Made by a program: the position numbers and the translations under genes
Shown: one piece after another, positions 4,698 through 6,761 of the stretch
Numbering within the stretch: position 1 is the stretch's first letter
How the letters are laid out: each line of letters begins with the position of its first letter
Origin: Sphingomonadales bacterium
Lineage (GTDB): Bacteria; Pseudomonadota; Alphaproteobacteria; Sphingomonadales; Sphingomonadaceae
Direction: 5' to 3'
NCBI GenBank assembly: GCA_025362295.1
Contig: JANYGX010000010.1
Coordinates: 90,388 to 154,387, forward strand
Length of the DNA: 64,000 nucleotides
The notes under the pieces: model-generated
What the model was told of the DNA's origin: nothing
What the model saw: only the letters and a program-made list of their open reading frames with translations
Databases searched by the model: none

Positions 4698-4705
4698 AAT
4701 ATTTA
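4698..4705. repeat. left 8-bp target-site duplication
   Basis: AATATTTA directly precedes the left inverted repeat and is repeated exactly at 6754-6761. Eight-base A+T-rich duplications are what IS1595-family transposition leaves. Confidence 0.85.
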
Positions 4706-4729
4706 GGCGTCTATCCCCTTAGCATACGT
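4706..4729 (+). repeat. left terminal inverted repeat (IRL)
   Basis: This is the outer end of the IS1595-family element. It shares the core CTATCCCCTT and CATACGT with the right end, with mismatches at positions 3, 4, 16 and 17 of the first 24. Confidence 0.82.
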
Positions 4730-4774
4730 GAATCGGCGTTTGCATAGATGATAGAGTCGACGCAGGAGTTTATC

Positions 4775-5707
4775 ATGCCTGATGTTGTTGTTACATTAAC
4801 CGACACAAAGCCCTCACCACCTCGGGCCGACTTTGCGTTTGAGATTGATTTCCAGCGAGGCGTTGGCCCTGCTTCGCGGGTATTTTCCGCGACTCACGAC
4901 TTCATAAAGGCTTGCGAAGCGCTCGATGCCGAGTTGGTGCAATCAATAGATTTAAGTATCGAGACGGTCCTTGTTCTTGAGGACATCCAAATTGGTTCCA
5001 TCAAGACATGGCTTCGTAATACACTAACGGCCACTGAGGATGATGCTCTAAAAACACTGGATTGGAAGCCTCTGGTCGGAAAATATCTTGTCCGGGCCAA
5101 ATACGCCGTAATTCGATGGATTGATGATGAGAGTCACCCGCGAAGTCTCCCAGAATTGCGACGTGAAATTCAGCAAATAGCGGCTGAGACCGATGTAAGG
5201 CGTCTCCCTGATTATTCCGCCCCATCACCAACGGCCCTGACAAATGCGATCCGCGATTTTCAGGCAGTGAAGGACAGGCTTATTCCCGGTGATAGAGCGC
5301 GTCTGCTGACGCATGACGGCGACATTGAAATGAATTTGTCAGTATCATTCCAAATTGAGGACATCGAGGCGCTGGCAGTTGCCAAGACGATTGAAACCCC
5401 CGCTTCGGAAATGATCCTGGCCGTTAAAAAGCCCGACTACCTTGGAACGAGTAAGTGGGAGCTGCGTCATGGTAAGCGAACCATTTCAGCCAAGATTGAG
5501 GATGCGGGTTGGCTCAAGCGCTTTCAAGGTAGGCAGGTTGATGTGCGCCCTGGGGATGCCCTACAATGCACTGTCAAAATCGAAATGCTGTATGGATTTG
5601 ACAATGAGCTAATAGCAGAGCGTTACACCGTTTTGACGGTCATAGATGTGCTAGCAAATCGCTACCAGGTGATAGAACTGCCATTTGAGGATAAGAGCGA
5701 TGGCTAA
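4775..5707 (+). CDS. transposon passenger protein of unknown function
   Basis: I do not recognise this 310-residue protein. It is soluble, with no signal peptide and no membrane segment. The N-terminal part (about 1-110) contains a LEDIQIGSIKTWLR stretch. The C-terminal half (about 170-305) reads as mostly beta strands with several charged turns. The start is the ATG at 4775, since AGGAG lies six bases upstream; an ATG at 4748 is in frame but has no ribosome site. The gene begins only about 70 bases inside the transposon end and overlaps the next small gene by 8 bases. Its base composition looks less GC-rich than the neighbouring chromosomal genes, as expected for imported cargo. Function cannot be assigned from sequence alone. 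Confidence 0.8.
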   Translation: MPDVVVTLTDTKPSPPRADFAFEIDFQRGVGPASRVFSATHDFIKACEALDAELVQSIDLSIETVLVLEDIQIGSIKTWLRNTLTATEDDALKTLDWKPLVGKYLVRAKYAVIRWIDDESHPRSLPELRREIQQIAAETDVRRLPDYSAPSPTALTNAIRDFQAVKDRLIPGDRARLLTHDGDIEMNLSVSFQIEDIEALAVAKTIETPASEMILAVKKPDYLGTSKWELRHGKRTISAKIEDAGWLKRFQGRQVDVRPGDALQCTVKIEMLYGFDNELIAERYTVLTVIDVLANRYQVIELPFEDKSDG

Positions 5708-5876
5708 CCTTAAGCAAGCCCGTGAAACTGGCAACTTAGGCCAGTTCGCCAAGGAACGCGACGACGCCACAGCCCCCGGCTGTGAGGCTGCGTTCAATCG
5801 TGCTTTGGATTCAATGGTCGGAAAGTCGAAAGCAGTTCCGGCAACATCCGCTCGGGACAAGCGCGGCGGTTGAACC
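5700..5876 (+). CDS. small transposon passenger protein, 58-codon reading frame
   Basis: This short, charged, soluble protein starts MANLKQARETGNLGQFAKER and ends in a basic RDKRGG tail. Its ATG at 5700 overlaps the end of the 310-residue passenger gene by 8 bases, so the two are probably co-translated. Its 3' end runs about 80 bases into the 3' end of the transposase gene on the opposite strand. A protein of this size and charge beside a larger unknown partner could be an accessory or antitoxin-like factor, but nothing in the sequence proves this. Confidence 0.55.
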
Positions 5877-6705
5877 GATATTCAAATTCCTTGGCATAGC
5901 GCCCGAGATACTTGGTGCTGACACTGGTATGCGTTCCTTGAATCGAGCATTTCAGATGACGCCAAAAACCTTCTATCGAATTAACTGACACTGTGACGGC
6001 TAGACGATAATCGTAATAGGCATATTCCTCTGCTCCGTGATTGACCGTTGCATGACGATAGCCAGCTACAGCAAGCCCGCGATAGCTGTTCAATTCATCG
6101 GTATGGATTACGCCGCCTATTCTGACATTGCTTTTGACGAACGGCTCTAGCGTTACCTTGCGTTGGTTGGGAACGACCTGCGTAATCACATCCCCGCCGC
6201 GTTCCATAGCCCCAATAAGCACCGTCTTTGCCGCTGATCCGCGATTGTGAGCGCCTTTCTTGACGCCGCCGATCAGGGTCTCATCTATCTCAACATGAGT
6301 ATCAGGGCCACCGATGGGCGTTTCGCCGTCTACATCGGCCGTGTGCTGGCGAATAAGCCCCGCCATGCGCCATGCACACTTATAGGTTACACCTAGTTGG
6401 CGCTGCAATTCCTTGGCGCTGACACCGTGCCGTGTGACGGTAAACAGGTGGATGGCATAGAACCAAAGCTGCAAAGGGGTGCGGGTTTGCTCAAACGGCG
6501 TTCCTACAGTCGGGTGTAGATGATGGCCGCACCACTGGCATGAATAGGCCCGCTCTGCCTTGATCCGAAACCAATTCGACGGGCGTTCGCATAAAGGGCA
6601 TTCAAAGCCCTGTCCAAAGCGGGCATTGAACAGGTGATTGAGGCAGGTTTCATCGTCAGGAAACTGGCGGAAAAACTGGGCGGTGGTGATGGGTTTCGTC
6701 GTCAT
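5794..6705 (-). CDS. IS1595-family transposase
   Basis: This 303-residue transposase moves the surrounding element. An N-terminal zinc ribbon uses C36-x2-C39 and C56-x2-C59. A short helix-turn-helix-like region follows near residues 95-120. The RNase-H-like catalytic core has D141 (in EIDET), D203 (in HTDELNSY) and the conserved N242/E245...K252 cluster in VNSIEGFWRHLK. These are the IS1595/ISXO2-like hallmarks (DDE_Tnp_IS1595). The frame is complete, with no stop or frameshift, so the protein is probably active. Its last 80 or so bases overlap the small passenger gene tail-to-tail. Confidence 0.93.
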   Translation of the reverse strand: MTTKPITTAQFFRQFPDDETCLNHLFNARFGQGFECPLCERPSNWFRIKAERAYSCQWCGHHLHPTVGTPFEQTRTPLQLWFYAIHLFTVTRHGVSAKELQRQLGVTYKCAWRMAGLIRQHTADVDGETPIGGPDTHVEIDETLIGGVKKGAHNRGSAAKTVLIGAMERGGDVITQVVPNQRKVTLEPFVKSNVRIGGVIHTDELNSYRGLAVAGYRHATVNHGAEEYAYYDYRLAVTVSVNSIEGFWRHLKCSIQGTHTSVSTKYLGRYAKEFEYRFNRRACPERMLPELLSTFRPLNPKHD

Positions 6706-6729
6706 GCTCCCTAGATAGGCATATCAATT

Positions 6730-6753
6730 ACGTATGTAAAGGGGATAGAGTCC
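6730..6753 (-). repeat. right terminal inverted repeat (IRR)
   Basis: Read on the minus strand, this starts GGACTCTATCCCCTTTACAT and mirrors the left end of the element. It lies upstream of the transposase start, so the transposase promoter probably overlaps it. Confidence 0.82.
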
Positions 6754-6761
6754 AATATTTA
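6754..6761. repeat. right 8-bp target-site duplication
   Basis: AATATTTA is an exact copy of 4698-4705 and directly follows the right inverted repeat. Confidence 0.85.

Follow-up and report, generated by a model that had tools for sequence, protein, structure and literature searches.

Can an insertion sequence (IS) keep an extra gene as a regular part of its make-up, and what would such a gene do? The question is raised by a 2,048-bp element at positions 4706-6753 of a 64,000-nucleotide stretch of Sphingomonadales DNA (GenBank assembly GCA_025362295.1, contig JANYGX010000010.1, positions 90,388 to 154,387; hereafter the window), which joins an IS1595-family transposase to a 310-codon passenger gene and a small companion gene. 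Coordinates are positions in the window, and L- and G-numbers are labels of the loci and genomes examined. The explanation that fits best, and that we hold to be reasonably probable, is an intact IS1595 cargo transposon with a phage-associated, probably anti-phage, passenger. The element and its ends can be read directly in the sequence:

4698-4705, no strand: left 8-bp target duplication, AATATTTA
4706-4729, forward strand: left inverted end, 24 bp, core TATCCCCTT, matching the right end at 20 of 24 positions
4775-5707, forward strand: passenger gene, 310 amino acids (aa), PDC-S42-like and of the NF053583 family, with a possible OB-fold modelled in its C-terminal part
5700-5873, forward strand: small companion gene, 57 aa, with a motif found in 30 of the 32 near-branch elements (defined below)
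5794-6705, reverse strand: IS1595-family transposase, 303 aa, with zinc ribbon and DDE domain
6730-6753, reverse strand: right inverted end, 24 bp
6754-6761, no strand: right 8-bp target duplication, AATATTTA

The 24-bp ends with 20 matches and the exact 8-bp duplication had been claimed in an earlier reading of this sequence (hereafter the original prediction), and both were recovered when every exact 8-bp repeat pair flanking the transposase was scanned and the inverted-end match scored over 24 positions. Because the next-best inverted pairing around the transposase and the direct-orientation null both reached only 11 of 24, the ends and duplication are not a chance pairing. The transposase matched the IS1595 catalytic domain (PF12762, DDE_Tnp_IS1595; E = 1.2e-34, 119.9 bits versus a cut-off of 27), the zinc ribbon PF12760 at its N-terminus (E = 2.8e-9, above the cut-off) and NF033547 (177.5 bits versus a cut-off of 75); its CxxC pairs begin at residues 36 and 56, and its catalytic letters are taken here to be D141, D203 and E245, the last preceded at a distance of three residues by N242. 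The predicted open transposase with a zinc ribbon and a DDN/E core is therefore borne out, and the catalytic domain, zinc ribbon, 8-bp duplication and short inverted ends together place the element in the IS1595 family, reportedly described by Siguier, Gagnevin and Chandler in 2009. It departs from that family pattern in having a 310-aa passenger and a small gene, whereas four of six distant IS1595 controls from plasmids are transposase alone (1.03-1.21 kb in all, stopping 5-16 bp after the transposase stop codon; the other two, L184 and L187, gave no clean ends, and L184 was placed within the cargo-bearing far branch of the tree). Both predicted genes are present between the left end and the transposase, tightly packed: the passenger has an alternative in-frame ATG at 4748 (giving 319 aa), the ATG of the small gene falls within the 3' end of the passenger gene, and the 3' ends of the small gene and the transposase overlap tail-to-tail by 80 bp. 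The element has a GC content of 51.8% and its passenger one of 49.8%, against 55.0% across the whole window.

That these genes move as one is indicated by a second copy of the unit in another genus. A profile search with the passenger across 397 genomes of the same family found matches in seven (its own genome included), one of which, G970, again has passenger and transposase together, at locus L200. The 2,040-bp unit there is bounded by ends matching at 22 of 24 positions and holds a passenger, a transposase that shares 80% identity with that of the window and a small gene with the same motif; its passenger is 81% identical to the window passenger over 94 codons in the N-terminal part and 69% over 210 codons in the C-terminal part, and its neighbouring genes differ from those flanking the window element. 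Since the same unit stands at unrelated places in two genera, passenger, small gene and transposase travel together, in keeping with the joint mobility anticipated in the original prediction. The parts of PMC7986276 consulted use tIS for insertion sequences with passenger genes, and as judged from sequence the element is one of these: a gene without a role in transposition lies between its ends and moves with them, because the unit recurs at L200 and because the sister element L072 has an unlike large gene. It is unlike other tIS in that cargo here occurs in nearly all of the related elements examined, turns over among them and sits beside a recurring small gene. The recurrence of the three-gene unit in another genus would also suit a passenger with a part in transposition itself, for example in target choice or regulation, rather than cargo; however, L072, whose transposase is 81% identical to the window's and whose ends are intact, has a large gene with no detectable similarity to the window passenger, and close passenger relatives exist without the transposase, so that we judge such a role very improbable. 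Passengers without IS ends or this transposase do occur, at other places. A search for an orthologous empty site, in which the neighbouring slipin gene was matched in 57 of 59 genomes from the genus, family and order, found none; the best of these matches were 39-45% identical, and a second genome of the element's genus was not among the 59.

To place the passenger in context, we surveyed 59 loci chosen by transposase similarity, regardless of cargo: the window, 16 better matches (L071-L085 and L090), 17 matches at 31-36% identity (L141-L157), two plasmid matches (L091 and L092) and 23 of the 25 non-own matches of a second search (L118-L140), with further transposase matches left out of the survey. 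Elements were counted as complete if they had ends matching at 16 or more of 24 positions and an exact 8-bp repeat, as in 42 of the 59 loci; L131 (19 of 24) was then excluded as spurious, with a second-best pairing of 16, GC-rich sequence and no sign of the branch's end core, and the 17 loci without an end pair at 16 of 24 were entered in no count, leaving 41 elements. Contrary to the expectation that cargo-bearing IS1595 elements are few, 40 of the 41 extend more than 700 bp past the transposase stop codon (705-3,576 bp; median over all 41, 1,252 bp), and the one cargo-free element, L127, measures 1,195 bp in total with 251 bp past the stop. In 32 elements (the near branch) the transposase shares 43% or more identity with the window's, and the other nine (the distant branch) have transposases 31-35% identical to it and different ends. 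Cargo is thus the rule, not the exception, among the elements of this branch that we examined. Duplicated target sites were 73% A+T, compared with 44% in the flanks, and the transposase would be expected to recognise the 24-bp ends and insert all 2,048 bp into an 8-bp target rich in A+T, with the large gene in a slot between the transposase and the left end being exchanged between related elements.

Sequence comparison within the survey indicates that the cargo gene does turn over between related elements. The window, L072 and L073 transposases are 81-87% identical and form one clade (support 100/99), and of their large genes that of L072 is the unlike one already described, while that of L073 is linked to the window passenger only via PDC-S42 models. 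Related cargo is also found on distant transposases (for example, cargo 54% identical in L129 and L143, and a common peptidase, 38% identical, in L123 and L142, both pairs with transposases 34% identical). On the starred branches of the tree, at least two changes are forced for each of the PDC-S42, L118/L139, M78, methylase and L129/L143 labels, which were assigned from family matches and by eye (the family listing does not name its members), and the trypsin-like pair is compatible with one origin. The cargo includes IrrE-like peptidases, N6 methylases, SocA/Panacea, P63C, Bro-N, ParE, VapD and trypsin-like proteins, and at least one membrane-bound-looking cargo frame, by a simple hydropathy rule, is present in 17 of the 41 elements. 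At an E value of 0.01, PADLOC models of 101 families matched among 65 cargo frames, compared with 59 families among 67 flank control frames; this enrichment in defence-model matches is a modest sign only, as the flank controls match PADLOC too, the counts are of families rather than proteins and include generic methylases, and five of ten singly scanned cargo proteins (L118, L129, L143, L085 and L141) had no match at that threshold. The cargo frames were mechanical picks of at least 90 aa, some of them surely not genes and those of L081, L134 and L136 including the small gene, and the controls were every third of 199 flank frames.

Three further observations concern cargo exchange and insertion in these elements. 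L118 and L139 have a common cargo family (40% identical) on transposases 48% identical; it appears to be DUF7946, and the L118 cargo also matches phrog_5147, making it a phage-associated family as well. The slot of L078 has taken up a second insert, a YefM/YoeB-like pair (by eye; element positions 948-1266) that separates the small gene from the transposase. In the viral contig L166, another IS1595-type transposase interrupts one that is 83% identical to the window's, so that the elements are nested.

The small gene recurs whatever the cargo. Its motif, LxxAxxxGxLxxF and/or FDxLLxAM, was found around or just before the transposase overlap in 30 of the 32 near-branch elements (27 by pattern, with the patterns derived from the very sequences searched; L073, L091 and L132 by eye; absent in L133 and L137). 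In L078 it lies further away, past the second insert, and in L126 and L140 it forms the C-terminus of a large cargo protein; a tblastn search with the window small protein was uninformative, as it also missed the L200 small gene. The motif accompanies unlike cargo and is present in L127, an element without cargo whose nearest kin, L139, does have it; a recurrence so independent of what is carried marks the small gene as the element's own and not as cargo. Of the two passengers named in the original prediction, the 310-aa gene therefore stands as one and the small gene does not; it would instead be part of the element core, probably as a regulator or partner of the transposase, and transcription of the cargo operon may, through the convergent overlap between this gene and that of the transposase, also hold transposition down.

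Two other accounts of the small gene were considered. One takes the passenger for a selfish or addiction gene (a toxin or part of a toxin-antitoxin system) by which the element is stabilised, the small gene serving as antitoxin, as the overlap of the small gene's start with the passenger's end and the toxin-antitoxin or antitoxin-like genes of other branch elements (ParE, SocA/Panacea, VapD) might suggest; yet a motif that occurs with unlike cargo and in L127 does not mark a passenger-specific partner, and it follows the passenger in both the window and L200, whereas the 11 relatives outside this element type all lack it there, which makes the account unlikely. The other takes the small gene for an accidental antisense frame of the conserved transposase 3' end. 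Its C-terminal half is indeed antisense to the transposase and may be passively conserved, and over 21 codons the window and L200 small genes show no purifying selection (proportions of differences at synonymous sites, pS, 0.36, and non-synonymous sites, pN, 0.39; ratio about 1.1). However, the motifs lie mostly outside the stretch that overlaps the transposase, codon position 2 is the most and position 3 the least conserved (a pattern biased by the choice of motif), and outside the overlap pN/pS is 0.21-0.61, below 1 in eight of eight pairs, although each pair spans just 13-32 codons and silent sites are saturated in most of them. We consider the accidental frame distinctly improbable and return to the small gene as a probable transposase partner. 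In the distant branch, five of the nine elements have a different short motif (like LDMPFDEALERF..TDP, by eye) directly after the transposase stop codon; it stands alone in L146 and L151 and forms the N-terminus of larger proteins, P63C, Bro-N or DinD-like, in L141, L143 and L153.

Tn7-like transposons carry interchangeable defence cargo. The elements described here resemble them as a transposon branch with exchangeable defence-type cargo, but have one transposase, whole-element sizes of only 1.2-4.6 kb across the survey and one to few cargo genes. In the literature searched, mostly without subscription papers, we found no link between IS1595 and defence cargo, IS1595 being merely named or the 2009 family paper cited in the parts seen, and no description of a branch-wide slot with a recurring small gene, the 2009 paper itself having been outside our reach; the IS1595 family and passenger-carrying insertion sequences are already known, and the branch-wide slot with its small gene is apparently undescribed. 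As a wider proposal, put forward tentatively and at less than even confidence, this alphaproteobacterial IS1595 branch could be a widespread, standard miniature vehicle, made up of a transposase, a dedicated small partner and an exchangeable slot filled mostly by anti-phage, toxin-antitoxin or membrane effectors that move between phages and elements. If so, cargo would be retained thanks to the small protein, acting as a new accessory factor of transposition, and the unnamed slot genes would amount to a catalogue of undescribed defence genes. Insertion sequences are usually thought to be limited to the genes for their own movement, whereas in this branch a fixed slot is almost never without an additional gene; the branch offers a testable case of an insertion sequence becoming a transposon, one in which a small gene recurs irrespective of cargo, and reading the slot element by element offers a simple route to new defence or toxin-like genes.

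What the window passenger does is addressed by its relatives. The original prediction had treated the passenger genes as of no known kind, and no Pfam family matched the 310-aa product, but that description no longer wholly applies to it: it matched, in part, PDC-S42, a PADLOC phage-defence candidate, and it matched the NCBIfam family NF053583 (96.9 bits versus a cut-off of 60, residues 47-292), and it has relatives in phages. PDC-S42 also matched the cargo of L073 (E = 3.7e-9) and L075 (E = 1.6e-6), and the link between these and the passenger is drawn from the common PDC-S42 matches, not from profile comparison (5% probability, P = 0.008); comparison with the L118 and L139 cargo showed no similarity. 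Beside their PDC-S42-like cargo, L073 (element positions 1063-1258, oriented) and L075 (1050-1254, oriented) each have on the other strand a small frame that appears to span the membrane, of a kind not seen in the window element. The passenger is patchily distributed (5 of 396, 7 of 397 and 3 of 385 genomes, its own genome counted each time) and had no match in plasmids, and no such transposase was seen in the examined stretches of four IMG/VR viral contigs that contain relatives 74-79% identical. In comparisons with L200, L002, L158, L159 and L003, its pN/pS was approximately 0.13-0.27, a sequence signature of purifying selection.

Both the presence of relatives in phages and viral contigs and the NF053583 match, whose name is 'LAPAL motif-containing putative phage structural protein', could mean that chance has given the element a virion or assembly protein of a phage as its passenger. 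The gene neighbourhoods examined point to regulatory or early positions, or to the end of the record, and lend the 'structural' name no clear support: phage repressor and CII-like genes lie less than 3 kb from the relative in L161; a RecT-like gene lies 2.8 kb downstream of that in L158, where the adjoining gene had no PHROG match; a 37% relative in Mesorhizobium phage vB_MseS-P1 (gp62) is near the record end, after lysozyme genes; and a 27% relative in a Vibrio phage is near a Phd/RelE pair. Moreover, IS1595 elements repeatedly hold the passenger or remote kin of it (the window, L073, L075 and L200), and a virion protein carried by chance seems to us a poor prospect.

Residues 200-295 of the AlphaFold model are better modelled than the remainder, and the best structural match of this C-terminal part, within a weak model, was Rim1 (Z = 8.1 over 80 residues), and the matches listed are, by their titles, mostly OB-fold proteins; if the model is right, this OB-fold may bind nucleic acid. 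Foldseek against the Protein Data Bank (PDB) returned nothing at an E value of 0.001 or better, and a sequence search of solved structures returned two chance-level matches only. In a viral library, the best Foldseek match (E = 4e-6) was an uncharacterised 184-aa protein of Mycobacterium phage Pipsqueaks, which, by its length among the 35 features examined, is presumably gp31. The gp31 gene has the lysis genes on one side and the integrase on the other, and its product matches phrog_3243 (E = 3e-48), as does the passenger. Pipsqueaks is a cluster N phage, according to the part of PMC4939774 consulted, and passages of PMC6426596 describe centrally placed, lysogen-expressed genes of cluster N mycobacteriophages that confer defence. 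gp31 is unmentioned in those passages on defence genes.

Taken together, the defence-model match, the phage neighbourhoods, the fold and the Pipsqueaks link favour an anti-phage over a structural role, perhaps by somewhat more than an even chance. The present slot gene, of the PDC-S42 and NF053583 kind, would then likely be an effector of superinfection-exclusion or abortive-infection type, with a C-terminal OB-fold. Several results weigh against an intact cargo transposon with an anti-phage passenger. The frame of the L200 passenger is broken between its N- and C-terminal parts, and no matching 8-bp repeats were found outside the L200 ends (this copy is probably old); the host genome (2.59 Mb, 37 contigs) has the element once and one IS1595 transposase in all, a single copy that leaves its presumed present-day transposition unproved. 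Tree shuffles were uninformative for two-member cargo groups. For the passenger, the PDC-S42 match (E = 3.7e-11) is confined to the C-terminal third (profile positions 194-291 of 302; no tool cut-off), PDC models in PADLOC are candidates only, the NF053583 name is that of a structural protein, the AlphaFold model is weak (mean predicted local distance difference test score, pLDDT, 56.7), and the similarity to gp31 is weak (passenger against phrog_3243, E = 2e-4; hhalign, P = 0.01). An intact IS1595 cargo transposon with a probably anti-phage passenger is nonetheless the explanation that we prefer.

Finally, the settings of stand-alone passenger relatives were examined. Around L002, L003, L004, L086, L087, L088 and L089, no convincing IS ends were found (best, 16 of 24). 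The closest bacterial stand-alone relative (L002; 79% identical) lies at the 3' end of a gene taken, by eye, as glpD, with no recombinase seen among its near neighbours, and is bounded by exact 41-bp direct repeats (4862-4902 and 5905-5945 of that locus) that copy the end of the glpD-like gene, a setting that may represent a second route of passenger movement.

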